From positions 35,071,176-35,135,175 of the forward strand of contig CM049311.1 in the NCBI GenBank assembly GCA_026874595.1: a stretch of DNA of 64,000 nucleotides, read 5' to 3'. The notes beneath the pieces were generated by a model. The model had not been told where the DNA came from, searched no databases, and saw only the letters and a list, made by a program, of their open reading frames with translations. This DNA is from Sipunculus nudus (Eukaryota > Annelida > Sipuncula > Golfingiida > Sipunculidae). Shown here piece by piece: positions 2,172 to 63,944 of this stretch. The stretch's first letter is position 1; each line of letters opens with the position of its first letter. Made by a program: the position numbers and the translations under genes.

Positions 2172-3166
2172 AAACCTGGATGCCAAATTGCACACCTAAC
2201 CGCACAAGAACAACAAGACCTCAAGATCCTGCTGCGGAATTATGAACATTTGTTTAGTGACATTCCAACGCGAACTAACATGTTGTGCCATGACGTCGAT
2301 GTTGGCGAGGCAAGCGCAGTCAAGCAACATCCATATAGACTGAATCCAGAAAAGCAAAGGTATCTACAGGATGAGATTTAATATTTGCTGGACAATGATT
2401 TTATTGAACCTAGTAAAAGTAACTGGAGTTCACCATGTATTCTTGTGCCAAAACCTGATGGAAGTTACCGTATGTGCACAGATTATCGCAAACTGAACTC
2501 TGTCACCAAGACTGACACGTTCCCAATTCCGAGAATCGGTGATTGTATTGATAGAGTCGGTAGCTCCAGGTATGTCTCCAAGTTTGACTTGCTATAAGGA
2601 CTCTGGCAAGTTCCCCTGACAGAACGAGCGAAAGAAGTGTCCGCATTTGTGACGCCGCAAGGACTGTACCAGTATAAATTTATAGTTATGCCGTTTGGCA
2701 TGAAAAACTCGCCAGCCTCATCCTTATGGTTGTCAAGGACATTCAGGGCTGTGACGCATATATTGATTACCTCATCGTGTACAGAGACACCTGGAAGAAA
2801 CATCTGCAAATTCTTCGCGACCTCTTCGAAAGACTCAGTGAAGCATGTCTGACCGTCAACTTAGTAAAATCTGAGTTTTGTCATGCACAGGTGATATTTT
2901 TGGGTCATATTGTAGGGCAGGGTCAGGTAAAACCTGTTGATGCTAAAATAAGTGCTATTTCTGCATTTCCTAGACCAGAAAACAAAAAGCAAATAATGCG
3001 TTTTCTTGGTATAGTTGGATACTACAGGAAGTTTTGTCCAAATTTTGATGCTGTGGCTGAACCTTTGACTAATTTGTTAAAGAAGAAACAAAAGTTTGTA
3101 TGGAGTGTTCAGTGTGAAAATGCATTTCAGAATTTGAAAGCAGTTCTGCAAAGTTCACCAGTTTAA
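2172..3166 (+). pseudogene. Ty3/Gypsy-type reverse transcriptase (broken, catalytic Asp lost)
   Basis: Typical Gypsy reverse-transcriptase blocks appear in order: FIEPSKSNWSSPCILVPKPDGSYRMC without its last residues (about 2400-2475), the first catalytic Asp in KFDLL (2586-2588), QGLYQYKF..MPFGMKNSPA (about 2655-2715), the metal-binding box (2759-2770), and FLGIVGYYRKF (about 3002-3035). The box reads YIDY instead of YIDD: the second Asp codon at 2768-2770 is TAC. Stops interrupt the frame at 2379-2381, 2595-2597 and 3164-3166, and a shift near 2715-2726 changes the frame. The enzyme would copy element RNA into DNA. This copy lacks both an open frame and a required metal ligand. Confidence 0.88.
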
Positions 3167-3584
3167 GCAGCTCCAGACTTTTCTGTACTTTTTAAGTTAG
3201 CTGTAGATGCTAGTGATACTGCTGCTGGTGCTGTGTTACAGGAAGGCATAGAATTTTACATGTTACAGAATGATGGCATACATCATCCAATTTGTTATTT
3301 CTCAAGAAAGTTTAATGCAAACCAGAAAAACTACTCCACTATTGAAAAAGAATGTTTTAGCTTTGATTTTGGCATTGCAACATTTTGAAGTTTATGTTAC
3401 TTCATCAGTCAGGCCTATCATTGTCTTCAGTGATCACAACCCCCTCACGTTCATGAACAAGTTGAAGTGTAAAAATCAAAGATTGTTGAGATGGAGTTTG
3501 TTCTTACAGGATTACAATCTTGATATCATACGCATTAAAGGGAAAGATAATGTACTTGCTGATTGCTTATCGAGATGTTTATGA
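3167..3584 (+). pseudogene. Retrotransposon RNase H domain (frameshifted)
   Basis: RNase H follows the reverse transcriptase and is the last coding domain. The catalytic set is visible: Asp in LAVDASDTA (3206-3208), Glu in the EKEC stretch near 3350, Asp in VFSDHNPL (3432-3434) and Asp in LADCLSR (3561-3563). The first half is in the frame of 3167. The second half (QHFEVYV onward) is in the frame of 3270 and ends at a TGA at 3582-3584. The shift falls in a T run near 3353-3357, consistent with a single inserted T. The domain degrades the RNA strand of RNA:DNA hybrids during replication of the element. Confidence 0.85.
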
Positions 3585-22397: not shown

Positions 22398-22594
22398 TAG
22401 ATGTTTGTTACCAGTTTGCTATATTGCAAGTAAGTGCATGACTTATCCTGTTCCGGTTTAATGTTAATACAAGGTCTCCGATGTTTATTTGAACCGTGGG
22501 GCAAACAGAGTTTTAACATGATTATATACCAGTCTGCTATATTGCCAGCACGTGCATGGCTCATCCTGTTCTGGTTTATGTAAATACAAAGTCT
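22398..22594. repeat. Short direct repeat at the left edge of the 5-kb duplication
   Basis: Segments of about 75 bp at 22,398-22,474 and 22,520-22,594 share ACCAGTYTGCTATATTGC, GTGCATG and TCCTGTTC-GGTTTA. A third related copy stands at 27,987-28,062, the left edge of the second duplicate. Confidence 0.75.
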
Positions 22595-24143
22595 ATTAAA
22601 TGCTAGTGATAAGCTAAATTAATAAAATCAGTAGTTGATCAAATCTGGTTTAATTCTATACCCTGCTTTGACTCAGGAGTTCAGGGATTATGTCTCAAAC
22701 AAACTCTAGCAGTCCAGTGTCAACTAACTTTACCGGATTCGAAGACATACATGGTTCGCCTTGGGCTATATACCTGGATCATAGAGTGCCATTAAGATCC
22801 TTTTGTTTTAATCTTTAAAATGCAGTTTTTCACTAAATGTTTTAAGCACTGTGTTGCCCTGTCATTCCCCAGGTATAAGGGAGATCATGTTAAGCACTGA
22901 CTGTTGTACTGGCCGAACAATTATAATATCAATAGGGTTTATGGTTTTGCCCTTAAGAGAATATCATCTCTCGCTTACTAGGATAGAATTGTAACTATTA
23001 GATCACAAAAATGGAGATACATATTGTCAATGTTTTTTTTTTTATATTTATTTTCTTTTATATAAACATTTTACTAGAAACACACATGATAATAAACATG
23101 AAAATAACTGATTTGTCATTATTCTGGTGATATCTATTTTAATTCCTTGCAATTGCTAACTTTCTCATGACTTCATTTGGCAAGGTAGCCAAGCTTGAAA
23201 TAATTATAAGATATAATAGACTTATAAAAGCACCGGTGATAATCAAAATTAAAAAAATGACGAAATGATTTTCATATTCAATCAATGTTATCTTTCCTAC
23301 CATGCAAAGTAGAACTCATAAGATCTGATGTTTTTCTGTCAGAAAGGGATTATATTTATATGATTATGAACTTATAGACTGATATTGCTTATTATCCCTT
23401 TAAACCTGACATTAAATATATTACTTAGATAGCTTTATTTTGGAATATGAAAGTTCAAAATACACAAGGGCCTAATTGTGAAATAATCAATCTATCAAGC
23501 AATTCTTAAAGGAGTCTTTATCACACAGCGAACATTCACACTGAACAGTGAAACTTAACATAAGAAAACAAATTTTATATCTTAAATGTATTATAATCTG
23601 TTACCTGTTCTGTTGATTTTAAATGTTTAATTTTACAAAGTGCCCCACTGGTCATAATACACAGCTGAATCTGTATTGGTCAGTGATCTAATTCTTATCA
23701 ACTAAGGAGAGTTTAAGAGAACCTGTATACACAACGTCTGAACATCCCAGGTCTAGCGATTACTAGTTGTGCCTTGATATATATCATACTGATATTTGCA
23801 GTCTGTCATTCACAAAAAGAAACTTAAACGTGTTACATCATCTTTTTGCATTGTTCATAATCGCGAATACTGATGGAACAGTAGAGTGTGAAGCTAAGAA
23901 ATAAAATTTCAGCTTTAGTTAATCATAATCGGTGAGCTCTATTTAGATAATTTTTCTTGCCATTCAGAAAAAAAAAACTACAAATGTACCGGTTTTGCTA
24001 GCAGAAGAAAGGTTAACCTAAATGGTGCCATCTGAAGTTTATATAATCGTAAATGTCACATGATCAATGTTTGGTAAAGCACATTACAAATTGTAGGAAA
24101 AATCAAATATAAAATACAACAATAAGCGAATTAAAGTTTAACT

Positions 24144-24443
24144 CTACGCTAAGGTAATGCTATCTCTCACATAAAAGCTATTTTTTTTATTTCCTGATTT
24201 TAGTAGGAAGAACTGAAAAAGATCATTTTGACTCAAATCAGCATAAGTGGCGATACTTGCAACTAACACTGACATAGTGGTCATGGGATCAATATGCTGG
24301 GTACTGGTTATAACATTATGAATACAAACACTTGTGATCAGAAATGGTAAAATAAGGTCAAGACGAAAGGTGTTATTTTTTTTGGCTTGCACCAGATAAG
24401 ACAACCTATGGGTTACAAACAAAACACCAGTGATTATTGCCAC
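24144..24443 (-). CDS. Hypothetical hydrophobic frame, copy 1 (possible exon)
   Basis: A minus-strand frame of 99 codons from the internal ATG; it is open about 20 codons further upstream without another ATG. Three hydrophobic stretches can be seen: about residues 1-20 (AIITGVLFVTHRLSYLV), 29-48 (LDLILPFLITSVCIHNVITS) and 55-68 (TTMSVLVASIATYA). It could be part of a multi-pass membrane protein or a chance frame. The second copy at 29,637-29,915 is the same except for one Ser-to-Ile change and a shifted C-terminus. Conservation is uninformative because the copies are young. No family recognised, and no clear splice sites. Confidence 0.2.
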   Translation of the reverse strand: MAIITGVLFVTHRLSYLVQAKKNNTFRLDLILPFLITSVCIHNVITSTQHIDPMTTMSVLVASIATYADLSQNDLFQFFLLKSGNKKNSFYVRDSITLA

Positions 24444-24562
24444 GGAACTCGGAGCTGACAGTTGCGGCAGATCCTGCTGTGTTCGGTTACCATCATAACG
24501 TTATATTTGTTGACGTATTCTATAAATGGAGTATTTTCACAAGGGTATCGCTGAAACGGGAT

Positions 24563-24584
24563 GGGGGGGGGGGGGGGGGGGGGG
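24563..24584. repeat. Poly-G run, copy 1
   Basis: Twenty-two consecutive G. The duplicate run at 30,035-30,060 has twenty-six, so its length changed after duplication. Confidence 0.95.
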
Positions 24585-26019
24585 TCGAGGTCCGGAACAC
24601 CTTTTTCAGTCGCCACAACATTTTTAAGGGTTTCAGACTAAGTTTTGTGACCTGTAACCCTTCCCACTCTTTTCCAGTTCAGGGGACCTTTTTTTATAGG
24701 TTTTGCCCTTAGTCATGGCGTTGACCCCTCCTCTCTTAAATCCTTGATCTCCCCGTGTGAGGTCATAACTGTATGTGCAAACACCTATTGATAAAAAATG
24801 ATAATTCATTGAAAAGATTGCTTGATATAAGTATGGCATATAAAGTTGTATGATGTAAATTTATATAACCACTCCTTTGTCGTTTTTCCCCAAGGGTGGG
24901 TGTTACTATAAGAACGTATTACTTAAGCGGTATATACCCAGGGGTCATAAATGGCATGTCATACTGAAACGTATGGTTCAAGCTAACATTTCAGGCCAAA
25001 TTTGACTGGACATTTTCTGCAGTAGTTTGTAGAGTAAATAGTAGAAATAGTAGGAATCAATAAATAGTATAACCACTCTGAAGTCGATGTCCTTGAAATG
25101 AAAAAAAAAATATATACGTCATCCGACATAAAACATCCATTTATTCATTGAAAGCTACCACTTTCATACTGCTATCAGGCATTTTTATTACCTAAACATG
25201 TATACCTATCAAGCACACATGGTAAACATTTGTCACCAAAATGGTACCGATGATCCAAATTTTTAGGTCTTGCTGAAGTACTATAAAAAGGAATTCGCTT
25301 CACATTTGTCCGCGATGTTCTCTGCTGACATACCTGATTTTATGTTTTATTATTCTCGCGGTGACATGGCCGGTTTGACAACCATTAATTTTTTATGAAC
25401 ACAAAGTTTTAAGTGATTTTCCCTGTTTTCCACATTGCAAGGAGAGTTCCATGTAACGAAAGCCGCCAAACTTCCTTCAGCAAAGACTGGAATGCGACCT
25501 TTACGTTATTCACATAAATGCCTCGAGCACAGGATTAAGCAGCTTAAATTAAGGTCTGTGCATGTGAATTTTACTCTCTTGCAGTGAGGGATTTAAGAAT
25601 GCTTTGCTCTGACTCATGTGCGTGGTCAGTAAGTGTGTTAACCACATGACTCTCGTTTAATGAAAAGGAGGGGTTCAACGAAGGGGGATAAATGAAAAAA
25701 AAAAAAAAAAAAATAATAGGAGGTCCACATAGATTTAAAAACGGTTGCGACTTCATTTGGGTCCGCTTCTGCTACTAACGAGGTATGCATGTTTCCGTAT
25801 CTTTCTACAGGAATAGTTTCCCTGCCTAAAAACGTACATTTAATTAGTCTTTCATGTCTTCGACACTTCAGCTTATTTCTTTGTACCTGCAACAATCGTG
25901 ACCAGTCAAAGACAATCGAAAACAATGTTCCCGCGCCCCATTCACAAATGTATCATTACTCACCTAGTCTTCAGGCTAAACATACCGGTGTAAAGACTTC
26001 AGATTACCCCCCTTTTTCA

Positions 26020-26070
26020 GGTTACCCCCAGTAATCTGAAATCGATTTCAGATTACCCCCGGGGGTAGCC
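26020..26070. repeat. Perfect 26-bp palindrome inside a longer hairpin, copy 1
   Basis: The centre 26,031-26,056 is a perfect palindrome with half-site GTAATCTGAAATC. Outer arms GGTTACCCCC (26,020-26,029) and GGGGGTAGCC (26,061-26,070) extend the stem with one mismatch, leaving an A versus CCCC internal loop. Nearby direct copies of CAGATTACCCC and CAGGTTAYCCCC surround it. The whole motif is repeated unchanged at 31,119-31,169. Confidence 0.85.
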
Positions 26071-26695
26071 TTAACCTGATTTCAGGTTATCCCCCTACAG
26101 TTAAGATTACCCCGTCGATGATCAAGCTGATAAGATATCTTTTCGTATAAGTAGGACCACTTAATAAAAGGTATTATCTCAAAAACGTTACTCGGATCCT
26201 ATTTTTTATTAATTTTGCAGGAGTATCTTATGGAATCCTCATTTGATCAGCTTTGTGTCACACTAAATTGATTTTTTTTTTTACTTTTTAAGATTTTTTT
26301 AACGCCCGTCTTATAGACGGATCGTATTATTGTTTAATGGCATAAATGTCGTTCCGTCGATTTTCTGCAGTATCCACACATGATACTCAAGTCAATGTAT
26401 AAGATAAGTATCTAAATAATCATTAGAAAACATTTTTTGTGGGGGGGGGGAGGGGTTAATCTGAAGTAATATTTAAAATATATTTGTACATATTTTATTG
26501 AGACAGTATCCACGGAAAATCTATTTTTTTTTTACTTTTAAAATAAGAACGAGCCACCTTTCCTTATCTTCATTAAATCATCTCCCCTACCCGGTAAAAA
26601 TCCCGGTATACCGGGTGTATCTGCTAGTAAATAATAATTGATTATATATGTTACCGTATATCTAAGATAGCTATTATAAATAATCAGATTATTAA

Positions 26696-27981
26696 AATAA
26701 TCTGCCCACAATGCACTATGTGTTCTACTTGTTTGATATTCACTGTGGTCCTACAAAAAATTGTACGTTTTGTGAATATATTCTTTAAATAATTTATTCA
26801 TCAAGTAATGGATAAGCTGTGTGGGTCATTGTAAGGTGATATAATTGAACCCTCACGAAACAGGGAGAAGTCGAAAATCGCGAAATATTAACCTAGTGAA
26901 TACGAAGCCAGCTAGAATATCCGTCATAATGAAAAATTCAGTGGTCACGAGCGCTTTAATGGGAAGTTTAAATAAATGCAATTCAGTTAATGCTTTCAGT
27001 TCGTTAACAATAAAGCTGACTTTTAATTTAGCTTCGCTGGAAGTAAAATCAGGCCCGAATAAAATAACCAAAGACGATTCCAACAATTGTGATATCGGTA
27101 AAAGGACAAAAAAAAAAAATAAATAAATAAAACTGTTCATTGTTTTTTTTAATGATTGTAACCTCCATTTCCTTTAATTAATTTGGAAAGTTTTTGAACA
27201 CCAATTCAAATAGCTCAATTTAACAGGGGCTCTTTAAAAAGACAAATTAACGATAAGCGGGGTGTGGCAACGCGCGAGGAAATTATGCCTCTCTTTCATG
27301 AAGAAATATGCATGCGTTAAATTATAAATGTCACATTCGATTTAAGCGGCAGCTAACCACCCGAACGTCGACATTATTTTCTTAAGACGTTGGGGCGGCA
27401 TTACTAGCTATCAATAGTAAGTCCTCTTCATTTCTGGCCGAACCTGTCTGTCAAATTGATATTCTCACAATTTTGATTAAAAATGTTACCACATCCCGAG
27501 TCATAAACTAAAGATTATTTAATTATCTCCACTAAACTTCCATATTTTCATGCCAAAATAATTGATAACAAAGCCCTTTACATCACAAAATTGAACAAAT
27601 ATCACTCCATTAAACTAATCTTTAGGAAACGTTATCGGAGATTGCAGCGTAGACTTAAAGAAAGAGGGTACATTTTTCTGCATGTTTATATGTAGTGACT
27701 CATGTCACTGTTTAAAAACAAAACATGAATGTTGTTAATTGAAATGCTTCCATCCAGCAAATATTGTGTTCCGACCCTTGGAAAAGCTAATTAAATTGTA
27801 TCATACTTGCAAGTACCGGCCCTTTTATTAAAAAAGGCCTTTGAGTCATGTGTTATGGCTAATTCGATTACATTTTTATTTATACCCTGAGACATATTCA
27901 AATTCATACTCACATATGGTTCTCATTGAATAAACTTTTTTATAAACTAATCCATATTATAAGTTAGTTGAATACACATGA
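26696..27981. repeat. Block B' (truncated at the duplication junction)
   Basis: Same content as block B up to about the GAATACACATG at 27,980, where copy 2 of the 5-kb duplication begins. The CT-TA microsatellite and everything after it are missing, which shows that the duplication breakpoint cut block B. Confidence 0.85.
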
Positions 27982-29636
27982 TTAACATGATTATATACCA
28001 GTTTGCTATATTGCCAGCAAGTGCATGGCTCATTCTGTTCTGGTTTATGTTAATACAAAGTCTATTAAATGCTAGTGATAAGCTAAATTAATAAAATCAG
28101 TAGTTGATCAAATCTGGTTTAATTCTATACCCTGCTTTGACTCAGGAGTTCAGGGATTATGTCTCAAACAAACCCTAGCAGTCCAGTGTCAACTAACTTT
28201 ACCGGATCCGAAGACATACATGGTTCGCCTTGGGCTATATACCTGGATCATAGAGTGCCATTAAGATCCCTTTGTTTTAATCTTTAAAATGCAGTTTTTC
28301 ACTAAACGCTTTAAGCACTGTGATGCCCTGTCATTCCCCAGGTTTAAGGGAGATCATGTTAAGCACTGACTGTTGTACTGGCCGAACAATTATAATATTA
28401 ATAGGGTTTATGGTTTTGCCCTTAAGAGAATATCATCCCCGCTTACTAGGATAGAATTGTAACTGTTAGATCACAAAAATGGAGATACATATTCTCAATG
28501 TTTTTTTTTGTTTAATATATATTTTCTTTTATATAAACGTTTCACTAGAAACACACATGATAATAAACATGAAAATAACTGATTTGTCATTATTCTGGTG
28601 ATATCTATTTTAATTCCTTGCAATTGCTAACAGTCTCATGACTTCATTTGGCAAGGTAGCCAGGCTTGAAATAATTATAAGATATAATAGACTTATAAAA
28701 GCACCGGTGATAATCAAAATAAAAAAAATGACGAAATGATTTTCATATTCAATCGATGTTATCTTTCCTACCATGCAAAGTAGAACTCATCAGATCTGAT
28801 GTTTTTCTGTCAGAAAGGGATTATATTTATATGATTATGAACTTATAGACTGATATCGCTTATTATCCCTTTAAACCTGACATTAAATATATTACTTAGA
28901 TAGCTTTATTTTGGAATATGAAAGTTAAAAAAAACAAGTGCCTAATTGTGAAATAATCAATGTATCATACAATTCTTAAAGGAGTCTTTATCACACAGCG
29001 AACATTCACACCGAACAGTGAAACTTTACATAAGAAAACAAATTTTATATCTTAAATACATTATAATCTGTTACCTGTTCTGTTGATTTTAAATGTTTAA
29101 TTTTACAAAGTGCCCCACTGGTCATAATACACAGCTGAATCTGTATTGGTCAGTGATCTAATTCTTATCTACTAAGGAGAGTTTAAGAGAACCTGTATAC
29201 ACAACGTCTGAACATCCCAGGTCTAGCGATTACTAGTAGTGCCATGATATATATCATACTGATATTTGCAGTCTGTCATTCACAAAAATAAACTTAAACG
29301 TGTTACATCATCTTTTTGCATTGTTCATAATCACGAATACTGATGGAACAGTAGAGTGTGAAGCTAAGAAAAAACATTTCAGCTTTAGTTAATCATAATC
29401 GGTGAGCTCTATTTAGATAATTTTTCTTGCCATTCAGAAAAAAAAAACTACAAATGTACCGGTTTTGCTAGCAGAAGAAAGGTTAACCTAAATGGTGCCA
29501 TCTGAAGTTTATATAATCGTAAATGTCACATGATCAATGTTTGGTAAAGCACATTACAAATTGTAGGAAAAATCAAATATAAAATACAACAATAAGCGAA
29601 TTAAAGTTTAACTATACGCTAAGGTAATGCTATCTC

Positions 29637-29915
29637 TCACATAAAAGCTATTTTTTTTTTATTTCCTGATTTTAGTAGGAAGAACTGAAAAAGATCATTT
29701 TGAATCAAATCAGCATAAGTGGCGATACTTGCAACTAACACTGACATAGTGGTCATGGGATCAATATGCTGGGTACTGGTTATAACATTATGAATACAAA
29801 CACTTGTGATCAGAAATGGTAAAATAAGGTCAAGACGAAAGGTGTTATTTTTTTTGGCTTGCACCAGATAAGACAACCTATGGGTTACAAACAAAACACC
29901 AGTGATTATTGCCAC
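29637..29915 (-). CDS. Hypothetical hydrophobic frame, copy 2
   Basis: Duplicate of the minus-strand frame at 24,144-24,443. A T run of ten (eight in copy 1) shifts the last residues, so the C-terminus ends KKKIAFM. Otherwise it is identical except for one Ser-to-Ile change. The same three hydrophobic stretches are kept. The status as a gene is unproven. Confidence 0.18.
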   Translation of the reverse strand: MAIITGVLFVTHRLSYLVQAKKNNTFRLDLILPFLITSVCIHNVITSTQHIDPMTTMSVLVASIATYADLIQNDLFQFFLLKSGNKKKIAFM

Positions 29916-30034
29916 GGAACTCGGAGCTGACAGTTGCGGCAGATCCTGCTGTGTTCGGTTACCATCATAACGTAATATCTGTTGACGTTTTCTATAAATG
30001 AAGTATTTTCACAAGGGTATTGCTGAAACGGGAT

Positions 30035-30060
30035 GGGGGGGGGGGGGGGGGGGGGGGGGG
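30035..30060. repeat. Poly-G run, copy 2
   Basis: Twenty-six consecutive G, the counterpart of 24,563-24,584. Confidence 0.95.
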
Positions 30061-31118
30061 AGGTCGAGGAGGTCCGGAACACCTTTTTCAGTCGCCCCAA
30101 CTTTTTTTAAGGGTTTCAGACTGAGTTTTGTGACCTGTAACCCTTCCCACTCTTTTCCAGTTCAGGGGACCTTTTTTATAGGTTTTGCCCTTAGTCATGG
30201 CGTTGACCCCTCCTCTCGTAAATCCTTGATCTCCCCGTGTGAGGTCATAACTGTAGGTGCAAACACCTATTGATCAAGCACACATGGTGAAAATTTGTCA
30301 CCAAAATGGTACCGATGATCCAAATTTTTAGGTCTTGCTGAAGTACTATAAAAAGGAATTCGCTTCACATTTGTCCGCGATGTTCTCTGCTGACATACCT
30401 GATTTTATGTGTTTTTATTCTCGCCATGACATGGCCGCTTTGACAACCATTAATTTCTTATGAACACAAAGTTTTAAGTGATTTTCCCTGTTTTCCACAT
30501 TGCAAGGAGTTCCATGTAACCAAAGAAGCCAAACTTCTTCGGCAAAGACCGGAATGCGACCTTTACGTTATTTACATAAATCCCTCGAGCACGGGATTAA
30601 GCGGCTTAAATTAAGGTCTGTGCATGTGAATAACCCTACTCTCTTGAAAATGAGGGAATTTAAATATGCTTTGCTCTGACCTATGTGCGTGGTCAGTAAG
30701 TTTGTTAATCACATGACTCTCGCTTTATGAAAAGGAGGTGTTAACGAAAGGGCATAAATGAAAAAAAAAAACCAATGAGAGATCCATTTTTTCAAAACAG
30801 GGGTGAGGTTAGGTGATGCGGGGTTTCAAGGATTTAAAAACGGTTGCGATTTCATTTGGGTCCGCTCCTGCTACTAACGAGGTACGCATGTTTCCGTATC
30901 TTTCTACAGAAATAGTTTCCCTGCCTCAAAACGTACATTTAATTAGTCTTTCATGTCTTCGACACTTCAACTTATTTCTTTGTACCTGCAACAATCGTGA
31001 CCAGTCAAAGACAATCGAAAACAATGTTCCCGCGCCCCATTCACAAATGTATCATTACTCACCTAGTCTTCAGGCTAAACATACCGGTGTAAAGACTTCA
31101 GATTACCCCCCTTTTTCA

Positions 31119-31169
31119 GGTTACCCCCAGTAATCTGAAATCGATTTCAGATTACCCCCGGGGGTAGCC
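31119..31169. repeat. Perfect 26-bp palindrome inside a longer hairpin, copy 2
   Basis: Counterpart of 26,020-26,070; the palindrome core is 31,130-31,155. Both arms are unchanged between the duplicates. Confidence 0.85.
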
Positions 31170-31795
31170 TTAACCTGATTTCAGGTTATCCCCCTACAGT
31201 TAAGATTACCCCGTCGATGATCAAGCTGATAAGATATCTTTTCGTATAAGTAGGACCACTTAATAAAAGGTATTATCTCAAAAACGTTACTCGGATCCTA
31301 TTTTTTATTAATTTTGCAGGAGTATCTTAAGGAATCCTCATTTGATCAGCTTTGTATCACACTAAATTGATTTTTTTTTTTTACTTTTTAAGATTTTTTT
31401 AACGCCCGTCTTATAGACGGATCGTATTATTGTTTAATGGCATAAATGTCGTTCCGTCGATTTTCTGCAGTATCCACACATGATACTCAAGTCAATGTAT
31501 AAGTATCTAAATAATCATAAGAAAACATTTTTTGTGGGGGGGGGGGGGGAGGGGTTAATCTGAAATAATATTTAAAATATATTTGTACATATTTTATTGA
31601 GACAGTATCCACGTAAAATCTATTTTTTTTTACTTTTAAAATAAGAAAGAGCCAACATTCCTTATCTTTATTAAATCATCTCCCCTACCCGGTAAAAATC
31701 CCGGTATACCGGGTGTATCTGATAGTAAATAATAATTGATTATATATGTTACCGTATATCTAAGATAGCTATCATAAATAATCAGATTTTTTAAA

Positions 31796-33236
31796 ATAAT
31801 CTGCCCACAATGCACTATGTGTTCTACTTGTTTGATATTCACTGTGGTCCCTATAAAAAATTGTACGTTTTGTGAATATATTCTTTAAATAATTTATTCA
31901 TCAAATAATGAATAAACTGTGTGGGTCATTGTAAGGTGATATAATTGAACCCTCGCGAAACAGGGAGAAGTCGAAAATCGCGAAATATTAAACTAGTGAA
32001 CACGAAGCCAACTAGAATATCCGTCATAATGAAAAATTCAGTGGTCACGAGCGCTTTAATGGGAAGTATAAATAAATGCAATTCAGTTAATGCTTTCAGT
32101 TCGTTAACAATAAAGCTGACTTTTAATTTAGCTTCGCTGGAAGTAAAATCAGGCCCGAATAAAATAACCATAGACGATCCCAACAATTGTGATATCGGTA
32201 AAAGGATAAAAAAAAAATAAAACTATTCATTGCTTTTTTTTAAATGATTGTAACCTCCATTTCCTTTTAGTAATTTGGAAAGTTTTTGAACACTAATTCA
32301 AATAGCTCAATTTAACATGGGCTCTATAAAAAGACAAATTAACGATAAACCGGGTGTGGCAACGCACGAGGAAATTATGCCTCTCTTTCATGAAGAAATA
32401 TGCATGCGTTAAATTATAAATGTCACATTCGATTTAAGCGACAGCTAACCACCCGAGCGTCGACATTATTTACTTAAGACGTTGGGGCGGCATCACTAGC
32501 TATCAATTGTAAGTTAAGCAAATGTCCTCTTCATTTCTGGCCGAACCTGTTTGTCAAATCGATATTCTCACAATTTTGATTAAAAAAGTTACCACATCCC
32601 AAGTCATAAACTAAAGATTATTTAATTATCTCCACTAAACTTCCATATTTTCATGCCAAAATAAATTGATAACAAAGCCCTTTACATCACAAAATTTAAC
32701 AAATATCACTCCATTAAACTAATCTTTAGGAAACGTTATCGGAGATTGCAGCGTATACTTAAAGAAAGAGGGTGCATTTTTCTGCATGTTTATATGTAGT
32801 GACTCATGCCATGTTGTTAATTGAAATGCTTCCATCCAGCAAATATTGTGTTCCGACCCTTGGAAAAGCTGATTAAATTGTATCATGACTGCAAGTATCG
32901 GCCCTTTTATTAAAAAAGGCCTTTGAGTTATGTGTTATGGCTAATTCTAATAGTACCCTGAGACATATTCAAATTCATATTCACATATGGTTCTCATTGA
33001 ATAAACTTTTTTATAAACTAATCCATATGTAAAGTTTGTTGAATACATGGTTGTTTAGAAAATTGTAGGTATCTGGATATATTTTTGAATTTTCAGGAGT
33101 TTTTATCATATCGTAAATAAGGAATTCGAAGAAACAAAAAAAAAACTTATGTTACTCTGGATTTTACGAAAGAGACAGAAAGTTATATAGTTATACTACC
33201 ATTTTGTCCATAAGTCGATAAATGTCAAGATCAACA

Positions 33237-33775: not shown

Positions 33776-36085
33776 ATATTGGTCTCCCTGCAGAGTTCTA
33801 TAGACATTTTTGGACAGATATCAAGGAACCCCTTCTGTCAGCTATTAGATATGGACTAAATGTTGGACATTTAAGTATCACCCAGGGACAGGGAGTTATT
33901 ACTTTGTTACCAAAAAAAAAAAAAATCTCCTCTTGAAATAAAAAAATTGGAGGCCAATTACACTACTGAACACTGATTACAAACTCATTTCAAAATGCCT
34001 AGCAAGCAGAATCAAATCTGTTTTACCAAGATTAATTAATGAGGATCAGACAGGTTTCATTAAAGGTAGGTACATAGGGGAGAATATAAATAAGATCATT
34101 ACAGTTATAAATAATAATACAGTTGAACAAGATAAAGAAGGGTACCTCACAACAGTAGATTTTGAAAAAGCTTTCGATTGCTTAGAATGGCCGTTCATTT
34201 GGAAAGCGTTGGAATATTTTGGGTTTGGAAAAAATATAGTAAACTGGATAAAAGTATTTTACCATGATGGGAAAACATGTATTATAAATAATGGGTGGTG
34301 CTCAGAATTCTTCAAAATGTCAAGGGGATTGAGACAGGGGTGTCCCCTGTCTCCATACCTTTTTATAATATGTGCAGAATTGTTAGCAAAAAAAATTAGA
34401 GAAGATAATAAATTAAATGCAGTCTGCTTCAATGAATATAAATATAAAATACTGCAATATGCTGATGACACAGTTTTTTTTATTCTCAGACATTAACAGT
34501 GTTATTGATAATGTGAATATAATGAAAAGTTTTGAAAAAAATTCAGGTCTTAAAATTAATCTAGGGAAAACTGCGGTTATGCCTCTGGTACATAACCAAT
34601 AAGGTATAAGCCAATCTAAAGAACAATAGAGAGAAAAGGTATGAAATGGTCAGAGGGTCCAGTTAATATTCTGGGTATATTACTTAGACCATCCTTAAAT
34701 AAAATAATAGAAGACAATTACAATCCAAAATTGGAATCCATCAGAAAAACATTAAGTACATGGTCAAACAGATATATGACACCAGCTGGGAAAATCACTA
34801 ATAATAAAATGTTATGCTTTGTCACAATTAATTTACTTGTGGTCTGTCCTTCCTGCTCCTAAAGCCAATTATTTTAAAGAACTAGAACAATTTCTATATA
34901 AATTTGTTTGGTCATACAAACCAGACAAAGTGAAAAGATTGACATTAATAGCTCCTTATAGTAAAGGTGGATTGAATATGATCCACCCTGAAACTCAAAA
35001 TTGCGCATTAAAATAAAATGGATTGAAAGAATCTTAAAGAAAAAACCTGACAATCCTTGGAAAAATCATATATTAAGTACTTTACCTATGGGGGAGCTTA
35101 CATTTCAATGTAATCTCAACCCAGAAGATTTGGATGAGATCTATTTAAAGGACATCTTTTGGAAAGAAGTCATGCAAGCATGGTGTAAATTTAATTTCTG
35201 CATACCAACAGAAGTGAAAGATATTTTTGGCCAGGTTCTGTGGTATAATCCCCATATTCAGATTGATAATAAGGTATTATTTTTTAGAAAACTTTACAAC
35301 TCAGGCATAATATACATAAAAGATATTATAGTGAAAGATAGAGGATTCTTCAGATTTCTTACATATGAAGAAATTCAGGCACGTACCAATTTAAATATAA
35401 ACTTGTTTTGGTATAATGGTATGTTGGATGCAATACCAAATGATTGGAAAAAAAATTCTTAAAGTAAACATAGAAAAACACCAGATTCAAAACAATATAG
35501 AAACCCTTTTCAGCATGAAAAAGGTAACTAAGCAGGTTTACTGTAAAATGGTTGAAAAGAGCTATGTTGTCTCAACAAAAACCCACTAATTAAGTGGGCT
35601 ATAGACTTGAATATATCCAGCTGGGAAAGCATTTTGAGTGCTTTCCCTAAACTGAAAAAAGTTTCAAACTAAGTGCAACTTAGAATGTTCCAGTTCAGAT
35701 TACTAAAGCGTATTATGTATCTTAATAGTCATTTGTATAAATCAAATATAATTGACAACCCCAGGTGCTCATTTTGTAAGTCAGAAGATGAAACATACAT
35801 TCATCTATTTTGGTCATGCACATTTGTCAAGTTAGTATGGTCAGATATACTTTTATGGTTAAAAGAGAATAAAGTGGCTGAACAGGATTTTAAGTTTGAC
35901 TGTGCACCAATAATATTAGGTGATTATACAGACATTATAGGCAGTATTCTAAAAGCAACAAGCCTTCTTTGAAAGGAGCGATCTTGTTTATTAAACATGT
36001 GAAGGAAATAGAAAAATATATTGCTTATAAGAAAGGAAATACTATTGTACATGATAAAAAATGGTAGAAACTGAACTTTCTTACA
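33776..36085 (+). pseudogene. LINE reverse transcriptase, L1/Tx1-like, with C-terminal zinc knuckle (broken)
   Basis: A non-LTR reverse transcriptase read across several frames. Visible blocks are LPAEFYRHFW-type N-terminus (from 33,776), NWRPITLLNTDYKLISK (about 33,948), INEDQTGFIKGRYIGENI (about 34,038), TTVDFEKAFD with the first Asp (about 34,156), RGLRQGCPLSPYLFI (about 34,325), the intact YADD box (34,458-34,469), SGLKINLGKT (about 34,545), the thumb region, and CSFCKSEDETYIHLFWSC (about 35,767-35,820), a zinc-binding C-terminus. Frame breaks: a stop near 33,937, a shift in the T run near 34,480, a stop at 34,600-34,602, shifts near 34,815 and 35,000, and stops after 35,459. The endonuclease half is absent (5' truncation). 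L1/Tx1 affiliation is from recall of the motif pattern. Confidence 0.85.
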
Positions 36086-50450: not shown

Positions 50451-52112
50451 TTAGCTCAGATGACTATAAGTCATTTAAGCTATAGCGATCACTCTTTGAG
50501 TCTTTGTCCGTCGTCCGTCTGTCTGGCCGTCCGTCCTGGTGTCCATTAGCAGGTCACAAATCGTAACTTCCGGACCTAGAAATTTTTAACTTAACATCCA
50601 CGGAGGTTCATAAACAAGTTCATATGAAACCTGAAATTTGATCTCTGTTACCCATATCCTCAGAACTGTTAGGCTCGTTAGTACATCCCCCCCCCCAAAT
50701 AATTAAAAAAAATTATATAAAAGCTCCAGTATCTGAACAACTAATGCATTGTACGCAATGAATTCTTGCATGCAGATTGATCATGGTGTGTTCATCAGTT
50801 CCTGCAGACTAGTGGCGCCACCTGAATTTTTTTTCGAATTTTTATGCAATGTTTTCTCTATTTTTTAATGAAGCAGTACTACCATTTATAGGGATAAAAC
50901 ATTAACCATTAGATCTGGAATCTTCCTATTGTACACGCAGGGAGGTCCAAGGCAAATCCTGGAAACCCGAAAACTACGAGCCAAACAGGATTTTGAGCAC
51001 TCAGAGAGTCACATGGGGCAAAAATTGTATCAGCTTGGTCTGGAAAATTTTAACATGACATCCAGGAAGGTGCTCGGTAAATCTCCGTGGAAACCTGAAT
51101 ATAGGCGACTGGCCAACAATATGATTAAGTGCACCCAAAAACCAATTGTATCGGCTAGCACTAGAATCTTTTCATGTAACATCAAAGAAATGCTTGGGCA
51201 AATCTCCATGGAAACCTAAAATTAGGCCACAGTAACCTTTATTCTGCGAGCTTCCGGCCAAAAACATGATTTTAAGCACTCAGGTAGTCAGTCATAGGAC
51301 AATACTGCACGGTTGGACCTCGATCATGGTAATATGACACCAGGGATTTCCTAGGCAAGTCTCCTTTGAATCACTTTGACCTATATTATGTGAGCTTTAG
51401 GAGAAAACATGGTTTAAGCATTGTGAGAGTCAGATGGGCACAAATCAATACGGATTGACATACAAACCTCTAACCCATATATTGTGAGCCTCGAGCGGAA
51501 AACCTAATTTTGATCACCCAAAGTCAGAGAGGGCACAGATCTTAACTGGTGCATATAAATGTCTTTCTTTATGTAAAGGGAGGCCATTGTAAAGTCTCCT
51601 TCGGCATCTGAAAGTCACTGTGACCTATATTCTGCAAGATGTGCGAAACAAGATGATTTCAGCAAGCTATAACAGATATTTGTACGATTTGTTACAGTTG
51701 GACCTAGAAAATATTAATTAGATTAAGATCCAGGGAGGTCCCTGTTAAAATTCCTAGGAAACCTGAAATAATGTCACTTTTACCTATATTCTGGGAGCCA
51801 TGTGAAAGAACATGATTTTAGCACCCAATTAGTTAGTCGGGCACAAATTGTAACATTTGGACGGAGGAACTTCTAACTCAGGAGTTCTTGAAAAATCTTC
51901 TTTAAAACCTAATACATGTTTAAGGTAACTGTAACATATTTTCTTAGCACTATTGGCAAAAAGCATGATTCTGAGTACTCAGAAAGTCATTCTGCCAATT
52001 GTTCAAGGTTCCTTTACAAATAATTTTCACTCGATCATAAGATCAATAATTAATACATGCGTCACCTCTATGTCAAAGTCAGCTGAGCGTCATGGCCAAT
52101 AGGCCACTTGTT
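50451..52112 (-). mobile_element. Pearl/Helitron-like tandem-repeat element, minus strand
   Basis: Minus-oriented. Its 3' end is at 50,451, where TTAGCTCAGATGACT and AGTCATTTAAGCT form a hairpin next to CTAA (on the minus strand), followed by CCGT units (minus-strand ACGG) at about 50,508-50,540. It then has one unit of the type found repeatedly at 56.8-59.4 kb, and about eight degenerate units of 100-165 bp marked by GATTTTRAGCACTCA-type text (near 50,988, 51,118, 51,258, 51,408, 51,507, 51,648, 51,811 and 51,964). Beyond these is TCAGCTGAGCGTCATGGCC (52,080-52,098), a motif that recurs inverted at 56,540-56,560. Confidence 0.6.
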
Positions 52113-53689: not shown

Positions 53690-56445
53690 AAGAGGAAATA
53701 TTTGTTAAATTTTGTAAGTTCAGGAGGTGTCATATGGTCAAAAGTAGGTCAACAAGGGCAAATTGCAAACTCGATCTGTAACGGGTCATTATCAAGCAAC
53801 ACACCAAAATCAGGCCAGTATCTGCAGGCATTGTGAGAAAAAAGTCCATACATGTGCATTTTTCATTCAAATTTCTGTCTTTCATGAAATTTTCTATGTT
53901 CAGGATCTGTCATATGGTCAAAAATAGGTAAACTGGGACGAAACGCGAACTCGATCTGTAAGTGGTCATTATGCGCCCACAGACCAGACATTAGGCCAGT
54001 ATCTGTAAGCATTGCATTGCGAAACTAGAATTTTTGTAAAAGCTGATCATCAGTTATAAATTTAAAATGGAGAGGTATGTACCATGTTTCATAACAATCC
54101 ACCAAATGCTTCCTCAGAAATAACCTCCTAAGTTTTTTTCTATACTAAGCTTTGTGACCGTGAAAATTAGGTCAAGATCTTTGAACTTGACCAAGATTTT
54201 GTAAATATCATGCATTAGCACTGAAGAAATAAAGATCCTGTGTTGAATACCTTTGGAGATATCCTGCACAAAAGGCCAAAATTGAAAAATCTGATAAAAA
54301 TTCATTAAAAAATCAGAAATTGTAGGTGGTGCCACCAAAATTGTGCAGCACATACAGATTATCATTCCAAATGACCATAGTAAGTTTTGCGAAAATCCAC
54401 ACAATGGTTCCTGAGATATAAGCTTCTGAGTGTTTTTGTATAATCAGCTCTAAAACAAAGAGAAATAGGTCAAGGTCACCAATCTTCGCACTTTACCAAG
54501 ATTTTGTTGATATACATCTTCACTGATGAAATAAAATTTCAACGGTGAATCCTTTCAGAGATTTCCCGCTCACAAGGCCAAAATTGATAAATCCGATAAA
54601 AATTGATTAAAAAAAAAACAGAAATTGCAGATGGCGCCACCAAAATTGTGCAGCACATACTGACCATCAGTCCAAATGATCATAGTAAGATTTGTGAAAA
54701 TCCACACAATGGTTCCTAAGATATAAGCTTCTGAGTGTTTTTCTATAATCAGCTCTAAAATGTAGAAAAATGGGTCAAGGTCACCCATCTTCGAACTTGA
54801 CCGAGATTTTATCGATATACATCTTCACTGATGAAATAAAGTTCCAACGGTGAATCCTTTTAGTGATATCCCGCTTACAAGGTAAAGGTTAACGGACGCT
54901 TGACGGACGGACGCCGGACGGACAGACGGACAGCTGGACAGCTTGGGTGATGACAATAGCCCATCAGCCTATGAGCTGAAGGCTAAAAAAGGCTGTACAT
55001 GTACATTTGTCATGAAAATTTCTATTTTTCATGAAATTTTCTATGTTTAGGAGCCGTAAAACGGTCAAAAGTAGGTCAATTGCGACGAAACGCGAACTCG
55101 ATCTGTAACTGGTCATTATCTGCCTATGCACACCAACAATCAGGCCAATATCTGCAGGCATTGCGAACAAAAGTCCGTACATGTGTATTGGTCATGAAAA
55201 TTTCTATTTTTCATGAAATTTTCTGCGTTAAGGCACCGTCAAACGGTCAAAAGAAGGTCAACGGAGACAAAACGCGAAATCGACCTGTAACTGGTCATAA
55301 TATGCCCACACACCAAAAATCAGGCCTGTATCTGCAGGCATTGTGAAAAAAAGTCCGTACACGTGCAGTTGTCATGAAAATTTATATTTTTCATAAAATG
55401 TTCTATGTTTAGGAGCCGAAAAGGGTCAAAAGAAGGTCAACTGGGACGAAACGCAAACTCGATCTGTAAATTGTCATTATATCTGCCCACACATGAAAAA
55501 TCAGGCCAATATCTGCAGGCATTGCGAAAAAAGTCCGTACATGTGTATTTGTCTTGAAAATTTCTATTTTTCATTAAATTTTCTAAGTTTAGGAGCCGTG
55601 AACGGTCAAAAATAATTCAACCGCGACGAAACGCGAACTCGATCTGTAACTGGTCATTATTTGCCATCACACCAATAATCAGGCCAATAACTGCAGGCAT
55701 TGAGAAAAAAAGTCCGTACACGTGCATTTGTCATCATAAATTTCTATTCTTTTAATGAAATTTTCTATGTTTAGGAGCCGTAAAACGGTCAAAAGTTGGT
55801 CAACCGCGACGAAACGCGAGCTCGATCTGTAAATAGTCATTATCTGCCCACACACCATAAATCAGGCCAATATCTGCAGGCATTGCGAAAAAAGTCCGTA
55901 CACATGCATTTGTCATGGAAATTTTGATTTTTCTTGAAATTTTCTATGTTTAGGAGCCGTTAAACGGTCAAAAGTAGGTCAACTGGGACGAAACGCAAAC
56001 TCGACCTGTAACTGATCATTATCTGCCCACACACTAAAAATCAGGCCCGTATCTGCAGGCTTTGCGAAAAAGTCCGTACATGTGCAGTTGTCATAAAAAT
56101 TTATATTTTTCATAAAATGTTCTATGTTTAGGAGCCGAAAAGGGTCAAAAGAAGGTCAACTGGGACGAAACGCAAACTCGATCTGTAAATAGTCATTATC
56201 TGCCCACACATAAAAAAACCAGGCCAATATCTGCAAGCATTGCGAAAAAAATTTCCGTACTTGTGTATTTGTCATGGAAATTTCTATTTTTAATGAAGTT
56301 TACTATGTTTAGGAGCCGTAAAACGGTCAAAAGTAGGTCAACTGGGACGAAACGCAAACTCAATCTGTAACTGGTCATTATGCGCCCTCAGACCAAAAAT
56401 CAGGCCCGTATCTGCAGGCATTGCGAAAAAAGTTCGTACAACTGA
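53690..56445 (+). repeat. Satellite array of about 181-bp units, ten units in two parts
   Basis: Units carry RCGGTCAAAAGWAGGTCAAC, ACGAAACGCRAACTCGATCT and ATCTGCAGGCATTGCGAAAA. Unit markers fall near 53,727 and 53,909, then 55,055, 55,237, 55,419, 55,602, 55,780, 55,960, 56,142 and 56,320, so spacing is 178-183 bp. Another element (54,011-54,986) splits the array. The array ends in ACGG-like units (about 56,448-56,475), then GGCCCATGGGCCATGACGC. It reads as the tandem core of a pearl-like element. Confidence 0.85.
54011..54986 (+). mobile_element. Nested element with about 305-bp tandem units, (ACGG)n and a 3' hairpin
   Basis: Three units (about 54,112, 54,416 and 54,721, the last partial) share CCACACAATGGTTCCTRAGATATAA and GCGCCACCAAAATTGTGCAGC, each given in part. 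They are followed by ACGG units (54,896-54,930) and a hairpin (TAGCC 54,957-54,961 with GGCTA 54,981-54,985; CAGC with GCTG inside) ending CTAA at 54,983-54,986. It lies between units 2 and 3 of the 181-bp array, as if inserted there. Confidence 0.65.
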
Positions 56446-56527: not shown

Positions 56528-59425
56528 AACTAGTGGCCCATGGGCCATGACGCTCAGCTGAATTCAAGGAATGTTGAACAATGAGCAAAATGACAGAGTG
56601 CAAACATTTGCCAGAGTGCAAACAAATCATGGATTTTGTGAAGAGTCCTTAGAAATTGGTTTCAGTGGGCTTTTGGACGGATGACAACTTCATTGGAAGG
56701 TCTCATAAATAGAAAAAAATGCGTAAAAATTTGAAAAAAAAACACTGGTAGTGCAACCAGTCTGCAGGAACTGATGTAAAACTCCATGATCAATATATAT
56801 CAAAAGAATCATGGCTATCAAGGCATTTGTTATTCAGATACTGGAGCTTTTGTTTGTATAAATGTTTAATTATTCTTGGGGGTATTTACGAGCCCTATAG
56901 CTCGGAGAATATGGGTAACAGAGACCTAATTTCAGGTTCCCAAGGAGCTTTCAGTAGTCTCCCTTGATGTCAAGTATGACGATTCTAGGTTCAGCAGTTA
57001 CGGTTTGTGCCATGTTAACAGATGAAGGTCTCATAAATAGAGAAAAAATGCCTAAAAAATTGAAAAAAAATACAGGTGGCACCACCAGTGTACAGGAACT
57101 GATGAAACACTCCATGATCAATATGCATGCTAAGTATCATAGTCATTAGTGCATTAGTTATTCAGATACTGGAGTTTTTGTATCACATTTTTAACTAGAA
57201 AACATTTGCCAGGCGACTATGTGTATCCGCCGAAGTCAGAATGGTACAGGTGGAGTGAGGGATGGATTAAGTGGTATGTTACACCACTCCTGAATATAGT
57301 CCACTAAAACTCTGAGAAAAGGGCATTAATTTAATCAACAAAAACACCTGGCACTACCTGTTTGGTTTATGAAAAAACTCTCAAAGACGGATTGACATGC
57401 CAAATTTAAGACCAATACCTTGAGCCATTCCTAAGATATAAGCAATTTTCACCCAAAGCAAATGTACAGATGGACACCACAGGAAAACAAATGCAGATGG
57501 CGCCTACAGTCATAAGTACAACATGGAGGAGTCCAAGTTATATGGATATGCACAATTTCAGGCCAATATGGCACACCAATCCTAAGAAAAGATCAGTAAT
57601 TTATTCTACGGAAATGGGAACGTAAATCATTGCAGATGGCACCACCAGCCATGAGTACAAGATGGAGGAGTCCATGATCTATAAATATGGACAAATTCAG
57701 GCCAAAATGGCAAAGCACTCCTTAGAAAAGGGCATTAATTTATTCTACAAAACCGGGAAGGTAGGTGGCGCCACCTGTCTGGTTTAACAGAAAACTTTCC
57801 AAGATGGGTGGACACGCCAAATTTCAGACCAATACCTTGAACCACTCCTGAGGTATGAGCAATTATTACCAAAAGCAAATATACGGATTGACGCCATGTG
57901 AAAATTTTTGCAGATGGCGCCACCCGTCTTTTTTATGAGATGGAGGTGTCGAGGATCTATGAACATGCACAATTTCAACCCAATACATTGAAGAACCACT
58001 AAGAAGAACAGATGGCAAATGCACAGTTGGATGCTACGCAAAAAGTATTGTAGGTGGCCCCACCAGTCGTGATTACAAGATGGAGAGATCCAAGATCTAT
58101 AACCATGCAAACTTTCAGCTCAATACATTAAGCCACTCCTGAGGTACCGGCTGTTATCTAAAAGACACCCAGATTCAGACTGCACAGGAAGAATTGCAGG
58201 TGGTGCCACCAGTCTTTGTTATGTACAACTACATAGATGAGGGAACAACTATGCCCGGGTTACGGAAAGATTCGTCCAAGGGTCTCAGAGGAGTTCTCCA
58301 GAAACGAACACAGTTTTTGTATCACATTTTTATTTATTTCGGGGGTACTTACGAGCCCCATAGCTCATAGAATATGGGTAACAGAGATCTAATTTCAGAT
58401 TTTCATGAAGACTTTTCATGGACCTCTCTAGATGTCAAGTATGAAGATTCTAGGTCAAGTGGTTACGATTTGCGCCCTGTTACAAGATGAGGCTTTATTT
58501 GAAAGTCTCAAAAAGAGAAAAAAAATGCGTACATATTAAAAAAAAATATAGGTGGCGCCATCAGTCTGCAGGAACTGATGAAACACTATATGATCAATAA
58601 GCATGCAAAAATCATGGCCCTTAGTACATTCAGATACTGAAGCTTTTGTATCACATTTTTATTTATTCTTAGGGGTACTTTCGAGCCCCATAGCTCTGAG
58701 GTTATGGATAACAGAGACCTAATTTTACGTTTCCACACAGACTTTTCATGGACCTCCCTGGATATTAAGTTTAAAGATTCCAGGTCCAGTGGTTACGATT
58801 TGTGCCCTGTTAACAGATGACAGTTTCATTGCAGGTCTGTAAAAAAGAGAAAAAAAATCGTAAAAATTGGAAAAAATACAGATGGCGCCACCAGTCTGCA
58901 GGAAGTGATGGAACATCCCTTGATCAATATTCTTGCAAAGAATCATGGTGATCAATGCAGTTGTTATTCAGATACTTGAGCTTTTGTATTAAATTTTGCA
59001 TTATTTCAAGGGGGGTACTTCGGAGCCCCATAGTTCAAAGGATATGGGTAACAGAGACCTAATTTCAGTTTTCCAAGGAGATTTTTCATGGACCTCCCTG
59101 GATATTAAGTTTGAAGATTCCAGGTCCAGAGGTTACGATTTGTGCCCTGTTAACAGATGACAGTTTCATTGTAAGTCTGAAAAAAAGGAGAAAAAAATCG
59201 TAAAAATTGGAAAAAAAATTGAGCTTTTGTATCAAATTTTGCATTATGGGGGGGGGGGGGGGGTACTTCGGAGCCCCATAGCTCGAAGGATTTGGGAAAC
59301 AGAGACTTAATTTCAGGTTTCCAAAGAGATTTTTTATGGACCTCCATGGATGTTGAGAGAGAAGATTCCAGGTCCAGCGGTTACGATTTGTGCCCTATTA
59401 ACGGACTTTCAGTCAGCTGAGCTAA
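56528..59425 (+). mobile_element. Pearl/Helitron-like element with two kinds of tandem unit
   Basis: Units of about 340 bp, marked by GAGCCCCATAGCTC, ATATGGGTAACAGAGACCTAA and TCCAGGTCCAGYGGTTACG, recur near 56,890, 58,370, 58,690, 59,025 and 59,270. Between 57,190 and 58,310 lie shorter units of about 140-150 bp built around GATGGCGCCACCAGTC. The end AGTCAGCTGAGCTAA (59,411-59,425) matches the right arm and CTAA end seen at 9,857, but the left hairpin arm is missing. Leading TGGCCCATGGGCCATGACGC (56,532-56,551) may belong to the preceding array. Confidence 0.6.
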
Positions 59426-61393: not shown

Positions 61394-61402
61394 TTTGTAT
61401 AA
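61394..61402. repeat. Left 9-bp target-site duplication
   Basis: TTTGTATAA, identical to 63,936-63,944, directly outside the first base of the left terminal inverted repeat. Confidence 0.9.
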
Positions 61403-61680
61403 GGCTGTGTGTAAAACTCGGAAGTCGGAAGCCAATGATTTTTCATAAATAAAGTGCTAAAACATGCACAAATTACCTCAAGATCAACACGATTTTAATT
61501 TCTTTTGATAGAATAAAGTCTGTTCTATCATTCCATGAAGAATCATAGTTATCCATTTTAAAATCTGAAAGTTATAGACGATTTTGTGCTCGGAAGCCAT
61601 CTCGGAAGCCACTCGGAAGTGCCGGGATGCGGTCCAAATGTGTAAAACTCGGAAGTCACGGAGACGCACTGGTCAACATG
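61403..61680 (+). repeat. Left terminal inverted repeat
   Basis: Contains several copies of CTCGGAAG: near the outer end, at about 61,591-61,618 in three closely spaced copies, and at about 61,648. GTGTAAAACTCGGAAGTC occurs both at the outer end and at the inner end (61,640-61,657), making the repeat itself a repeat within a repeat. Such subterminal motifs often bind transposase. Confidence 0.85.
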
Positions 61681-63647
61681 TGGTCAGTTTAGAGCCACAT
61701 GGCAAATGCAGTTTCATTGCATGCATATATTTAAAATGCTTATGATTGCGCTTGTAATGAGTATATAATACAATACATCATTGTACATACTACAATATGA
61801 TAAAAGAATCCGAGTACGACTTTAAAAACACATTTATAAATTACGATATCATTAAAATATTAAAACAGTTTTAATATATTTTCCTTACGTTGAGCAAATA
61901 TCCAATATATTTAATATTATCATAATATATTGGAAATTCAATATATTTGTTATGTGCGTAATAAGGGCATCTAAAAACAGAATGTGTTCCTAGCTTCAAT
62001 TAATGAACTGCACGCGGCGGAGTGACGATTACAACGATCTCGATAAAGAAATTCCTATTTTGTGTGAGGAGGAGATCGTTGAATGTCAAATCTTAGATAA
62101 ATAATCTCATAAATAGGATCTTATTGACACATAAGACATGGGGGGCTTCAAGTAAAAGTCTGTATGTCTGGAGGTTAAATGGTGTCTTAAAGAAGCTACG
62201 GATATAGGCATTTTTATCCAACCGGTTGCTTAGCTAAGATTCATACCTTGAAATTCCATGCAAAAAATATTGTGAACGTTATGCAATAATGAAACGACTC
62301 CTTTCCGATGATTTTTCGACAAATACCCATCAAATCAATCACTCTGGAAAATCTGGTTGGATATTTACCGCCAAGATAAAAATTTCAATGATAAATATCA
62401 TTTATTCCCATTCTTCTTTGATAAAATAGCAAGTAAACCTCTTTATAAAAAAATCCTTTTCATGCACATGAATCTTATCTATATACTCACAATCTTTATT
62501 TGATACTTATTTATTTACCCTATTCGTAATTAAATTTATATAAAAAAAAACAAGTTAACAGGAAGCTTATTCTTAGGCCTGCATGGTAATCATGCACTGA
62601 ATTATAGTCGGAATTCTATAAAGTAGTGCTGTGTTTTCGGACCTAACTCCCTTCGGACCTCATAGTTCCTTGTATCAGGTTCTTATTAGGTAATTATTTA
62701 ATATCTATAAGAGACTGCTTAACAAAGAAAGCCGTTTTACTCTGTTACAGTTTATTTTCAAACATTTACTGAATAATTTTTGCCAAGCTAAATGTTTTGT
62801 TGATGTTTTATTGATTTGTTGTTGAATTTTTTTTCTGTTGGCGCGATTTACAATATGTATATAAAAAGTATTAATGTTTGTGCCGTCTGGTTTTTTTTTT
62901 TATAAATTTCAGAACATTAATTTTTCGAACATTGTACATAACAGCATAAAAATACCGAGGAAATATCAAATCGTTCTGCAAAAACAGAAACAATTTTATT
63001 TTATATGAACGTTAAATGTTACAATCGGCTTCATATCTATTTACACATGTATTATGTATTTATTTCTGTGAAGGTTTTGTTTATGTTTGTTTTTCTTTTT
63101 AAAGTTGTCCAATACATTTGATGAATCATTATCAAACAAATTCAATGTGAAATATTATGCATATTATGCTGTCTATTTTGGCAACATTTTAAAACTTGAA
63201 TTTAAAAGGGTTTCATTTTACAGCATGAACATATCGGGGAAAAAAATCACATTTTAAATTTGTAAAATGTGCACTCTGATCATGAAATATAAAATATATT
63301 TTGGAATCAATTAAATATTACATAATAGATTTTTTAATCTAAGAGATACATAATCCTGATGAAATTTTTTATCTATGGAACATAAAAAGGTTGGTCAATT
63401 TATACATGAAACATAAAACATTTTATCTAAACAACCTTTAGAAACATTTCCAGGACGTTGTGTTTCTGTCAAATTTTAATTCTATTTATCATTTTAATTA
63501 ATCAATTATTACTATGTTGTTTTACAAAATGAAAAAAAAAATATGACCACAAAATATTATTTTAAGAAAAAAGCATCATGAATGTTACACAGCAGACTTA
63601 ATTATAAAAAATATGTCATCTGGAAGATATTGAAAATGCTAGACACG

Positions 63648-63935
63648 CATGCTGACGATTTGATGACCAGTGCATGGCCGTGGCCACGAGTTTTACACAT
63701 TTGGATTACTACCCGGCACTTCCGAGTGACTTCCGAGATGGCTTCCGAGCACAGAATCTTCTATAACTTTCAGATTATTGAATTAATAACTATGATTCTT
63801 CACAGAATGATAGAACAGACCCTAGTGTATTGTTAAAAATCGAAATAGTATTGATGTAATGGAATTTTGTATATGCTTTATGGTTTTGTTTCTAAAAAAT
63901 CCTTGGCTTCCGACTTCCGAGTTTTACACACAGCC
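63648..63935 (-). repeat. Right terminal inverted repeat
   Basis: Reverse complement of the left repeat. CTTCCGAG copies, GAGTTTTACACATTTGGAT and ATGATTCTTCACAGAATGATAGA match the left side. The middle (about 63,840-63,890) has diverged more. Confidence 0.85.
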
Positions 63936-63944
63936 TTTGTATAA
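63936..63944. repeat. Right 9-bp target-site duplication
   Basis: TTTGTATAA directly after the last base of the right inverted repeat. Confidence 0.9.

Follow-up and report, generated by a model that had tools for sequence, protein, structure and literature searches.

A non-autonomous DNA transposon copy with long terminal inverted repeats and a perfect 9-bp target-site duplication, likely of the Mutator-like type

Mutator-like elements (MULEs) are flanked by target-site duplications (TSDs) of 8 to 11 bp and commonly have terminal inverted repeats (TIRs) of hundreds of base pairs (PMC6446971). All 14 MULE families described from Aedes aegypti have TSDs of 8 to 9 bp, and 12 of them have TIRs longer than 100 bp; 10 of these 12 long-TIR families carry subterminal tandem repeats with units of 9 to 15 bp, and every family except Muta6 has non-autonomous derivatives, whose interiors are heterogeneous (PMC5225508). 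Most arthropod MULEs have G or C at the first three TIR bases, and in most arthropod species the MULE TIRs measure 20 to 95 bp (PMC13359780). Merlin elements are described with TSDs of 8 to 9 bp, TIRs of 24 to 462 bp and a conserved terminal 5'-GG (PMC8101967).

The window, which is the whole 64-kb stretch of DNA analyzed here, holds a unit whose reading as a complete DNA transposon with long TIRs, a 9-bp TSD and no transposase we find supported. The unit spans 61403-63935 (2,533 bp, 70% A+T), and perfect 9-bp direct repeats, TTTGTATAA, lie on both flanks, as a sequence-only reading of this DNA had claimed; their length falls within the 8 to 11 bp of MULEs. The two copies are identical and directly adjoin GGCTGTGTGTAAAACTCGGAAGTCGGAAGCC, read inward from each end. 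GGC also follows the right duplication, making the direct repeat 12 bp long (TTTGTATAAGGC) and the border between TSD and TIR ambiguous by up to 3 bp. The 9-bp reading is favored because of its symmetry, since only 9 bp lets both TIRs start at the same base. Identical 9-mers at the same distance are found at 4 of the 61,449 position pairs in the window, which is the number that the 12-bp repeat alone yields. With up to 3 mismatches allowed, the outer 24 bases occur twice in the 64 kb, both times at the ends of the unit and nowhere else in the window, and 0 times in 100 shuffles.

The arms are 20% diverged, as might be expected of a pair of short repeats that are unrelated and oppositely oriented, or of an inverted duplication, with a flanking repeat that arose by chance. 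Such an origin is extremely unlikely, as the ends are symmetrical to the base and a perfect 9-bp repeat lies on the flanks. Among the 15 further inverted pairs listed (within 20 kb), direct matches close to the ends do not exceed 7 bp in 13 cases; the remaining two are overlapping rows in a duplicated region at 26/31 kb and have one 10-bp match in common.

The features of the transposon are collected in Table 1. Self-BLAST aligns the arms (61401-61687 and 63937-63652) with 80.5% identity over 287 positions (E 3e-70), where 229 of the 287 columns are identical and the others comprise 30 transitions, 27 transversions and 1 gap (K2P 0.23). Inverted repeats of about 280 bp had been proposed from the sequence, and with about 287 bp and 80% identity they agree with the long TIRs of MULEs. 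Each arm is laid out as a tip, an A+T-rich spacer, three CTCGGAAG motifs 11 to 12 bp apart and a second tip. Counted from the outer end, CTCGGAAG is at 15 and GTCGGAAG at 22 in the tip, the A+T-rich stretch shows a between-arm identity of 63% at 34-115 and 87% at 116-185, and the three further CTCGGAAG motifs follow at 187, 199, and 210, inside a 38-bp block with one mismatch; the arm tail after the inner tip fades near 287. The three motif copies between the tips, which had also been noticed earlier, are present in both arms and correspond to the subterminal short tandem repeats that MULEs may, but need not, have. At the inner edge, the left arm repeats GTGTAAAACTCGGAAGTC 231 bp farther in, whereas the right arm keeps only TGTGTAAAACTCG there and has lost CTCGGAAG; the recurrence measures 19 bp on the left and 13 bp on the right.

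Table 1. Positions of the transposon features in the window
Feature	Position	Strand	Basis
Left TSD, TTTGTATAA	61394..61402	.	sequence
Left TIR, about 285 bp	61403..61687	+	self-BLAST, alignment
Left outer tip, 33 bp identical in both arms, with CTCGGAAG and overlapping GTCGGAAG	61403..61435	+	
Left arm, three CTCGGAAG copies, starts 12 and 11 bp apart	61589..61619	+	
Left inner tip copy TGTGTAAAACTCGGAAGTC, direct repeat of 61408-61426	61639..61657	+	
A+T-rich interior, about 28% G+C, without recognized coding domain	61688..63651	.	
Right TIR	63652..63935	-	self-BLAST, alignment
Right inner tip, decayed, TGTGTAAAACTCG remaining and CTCGGAAG lost	63687..63699	-	
Right arm, three CTCGGAAG copies	63719..63749	-	
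Right outer tip	63903..63935	-	alignment
Right TSD, TTTGTATAA	63936..63944	.	sequence

Exact CTCGGAAG is found five times in the left arm, four times in the right arm and nowhere else in the window, and when the left arm was shuffled 20,000 times, no shuffle held more than one exact copy. When one mismatch is allowed, the whole window yields 27 matches against 20.0 expected, a count of at least 27 being reached in 13 of 100 shuffles; there is no enrichment across the window at this level, and so the exact sites in the arms are what is remarkable. The sequence-only reading had described each arm as an array of binding sites, and the likeness to the subterminal repeats of animal MULEs described in PMC5225508 makes an array of putative binding sites a reasonable interpretation.

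The mismatches between the arms are clustered, both by the longest identical run (33 bp, p 0.019) and by the sum of squared runs (p 0.001), each from 20,000 shuffles of the mismatch positions. The picture of near-perfect tips and diverged middle parts applies to the 33 identical bp of the tips, but identity is high again at 161-220 (57 of 60 columns). The CTCGGAAG sites are not significantly spared (3/40 mismatches, with 33 of 287 circular shifts as good), and with a single copy, comparing its arms does not tell selection from patchy gene conversion. The suggested selection on the tips is plausible, though weakly supported by this single copy. If all of the arm divergence had arisen after insertion, the nine base pairs of the TSD would have remained unchanged with a chance of about 0.8^9 = 0.13, a weak hint that part of the divergence may predate the insertion.

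All 37 stop-to-stop frames of at least 30 amino acids that overlap 61690-63650 were scanned against Pfam, and none reached the cut-off for a transposase or any other domain, including the MULE DDE and DDE_Tnp_IS1595 families; in line with the earlier reading, no transposase was recognized in the unit. The strongest interior match aligns 14 residues to the C2H2 zinc finger PF23165 (E 0.0026; 17.6 bits, cut-off 24) and lies within a 40-residue frame at 62107-62229. Being under the cut-off, it was taken as chance among 37 scans and rejected as a transposase remnant. A protein common to both arms, read from outward open reading frames of 61 and 84 amino acids, was rejected because it has no Pfam match and also because the mismatches are spread evenly over the three phases (20/19/19). 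An RNA gene was likewise rejected, as Rfam gave 0 matches at gathering scores in the window.

We consider the unit to be probably a MULE-type cut-and-paste DNA transposon, present as a non-autonomous copy that was moved in trans. MULE membership is likely, and it rests on an anatomy that Merlin shares. The first three TIR bases are GGC, in line with the G/C start of most arthropod MULEs (PMC13359780). Several points count against the assignment: the TIRs are longer than the 20 to 95 bp of most arthropod species in that study (PMC13359780), no MULE transposase was found with these tips, a single copy is seen in the window, and the array has 3 units here versus 9 in Muta1 and Muta5 (PMC5225508).

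A non-autonomous Merlin element would have moved by the same cut-and-paste mechanism with an IS1016/IS1595-type transposase. The 9-bp TSD, the TIRs of about 287 bp and the GGC at the tip all fall within the Merlin ranges given in PMC8101967, yet the new families with stated TIR lengths in that source have TIRs of 23 to 39 bp and mostly 8-bp TSDs (PMC8101967), and long TIRs with short subterminal tandem repeats have been reported from MULEs (PMC5225508). The curated consensus elements of bivalves comprise 39 MULE versus 3 Merlin entries (PMC10294476), which counts only if the host is a bivalve. On balance, a Merlin origin is unlikely, though it stays a rival reading.

For the preferred MULE-type element, a transposase from another copy would bind the CTCGGAAG-containing tip and the array in both arms, then pair the ends and cut at GGC/GCC. 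Insertion into a target with a 9-bp stagger, followed by fill-in, would produce TTTGTATAA twice. The inner tip copy may be what is left of a TIR that was partly duplicated, or it may serve as an auxiliary binding site. In plant tandem TIRs, the start of the internal TIR is slightly less conserved, which the authors suggest may keep cleavage at the outer end (PMC3310237), and the decay of the right inner tip could have the same explanation.

The search for relatives extended beyond the window. The 22-base outer tip gave 0 matches in viral contigs, and a 16-base tip matched 32 stretches in prokaryote genome contigs, fewer than the roughly 120 that chance would give a 16-mer if all four bases were equally frequent. 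When the arms and the interior were compared with the 32 loci, 107 short matches came up, none longer than 36 bases (81% identity); the lowest E value (3.6e-4, 25 bases at 92%) lies around the 16-mer used as query, and the interior contributes 3 matches of 24 to 31 bases (E 0.38). The prokaryote loci were rejected as relatives and attributed to chance. TGTGTAAAACTC appears in print in papers that, by their titles and abstracts, deal with DNA repair, cartilage and tumor genetics, and these were also set aside. The bivalve, MULE, Merlin and foldback literature offered architectural parallels in the portions consulted, and no matching sequence was seen there.

Another or undescribed superfamily that makes 9-bp duplications would agree with an interior in which no transposase was recognized and with the lack of a relative in the window and in the viral and prokaryote collections. 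It is nevertheless very unlikely, given that the main structural features have published MULE counterparts. We regard the unit as an ordinary element type whose sequence family is possibly unlisted. It is doubtful that the tips and the CTCGGAAG array define a long-TIR family absent from existing libraries, with a fixed two-tip layout of outer tip, array and inner tip kept by selection while the spacers drift, and with a transposase bridging tip sites 231 bp apart in each arm.

The window as a whole appears to be a eukaryotic, repeat-rich region, probably from an animal. A large segmental duplication at 22513-33047 pairs 22513-24795 with 27982-30277 at 97% and 25208-27976 with 30273-33047 at 92%; it contains the inverted pair 26016-26089/31115-31188, with the 10-bp direct match TTTCAGGTTA near its ends. 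Satellite-like arrays lie at 54-59 kb: one at 54985-56440 has 8 copies with a period of about 182 bp, can also be read as a 359-bp dimer and has related units at 53.7-54.0 kb, and another at 58315-59216 has a period of about 330 bp and an inverted relative about 8 kb away (50541-50949). Pieces of an LTR retrotransposon lie on the same strand at 1102-3584, consisting of an integrase core (1102-1719), a reverse transcriptase (2678-3166) and an RNase H (3252-3584); the integrase core precedes the other two domains, an order that may reflect a rearrangement or pieces from separate copies. A further reverse transcriptase at 33942-34496 is read as LINE-type. These calls are based on Pfam rve, RVT_1, and RT_RNaseH, with RVT_1 at 2678 just under the cut-off, and the element types are our interpretation.

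For the annotation of this genome, the unit supplies a non-autonomous DNA transposon copy with well-defined ends, and its tips have enough length to retrieve relatives. Its importance would grow only if a coding relative has an unexpected transposase, or if many copies show the two-tip layout kept by selection.

The overall plan is not new, having published counterparts in animal MULEs (PMC5225508) and plant tandem-TIR MULEs (PMC3310237). Merlin has the TSD length, TIR range and terminal GG in common with the unit and differs in that the source describes no subterminal array (PMC8101967). Table 1 of PMC6446971 lists TIRs of 48 and 296 bp for MULE-Cg (group 15, Mollusca); the longer value resembles the unit, a likeness in listed TIR length, and the TSD is not given there. 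The tandem-TIR MULEs of tomato and Arabidopsis have an external and an internal TIR at both ends, the outer one being flanked by the TSD, and duplicate the whole long TIR, whereas here only an 18- to 19-bp tip recurs 231 bp inward, and at neither end does a full second TIR adjoin the first on its inner side (PMC3310237). In Muta1 a 12-bp repeat occurs 9 times, and the description of that family mentions no inner tip copy, unlike the present arms, in which the tip is followed after about 150 bp by 3 copies and then by a second tip (PMC5225508). As in the Aedes aegypti long-TIR MULEs, whose families include copies with unrelated interiors, the unit combines a TSD within 8 to 9 bp with a TIR longer than 100 bp composed of a terminal motif and short subterminal repeats, the likeness being one of architecture (PMC5225508).
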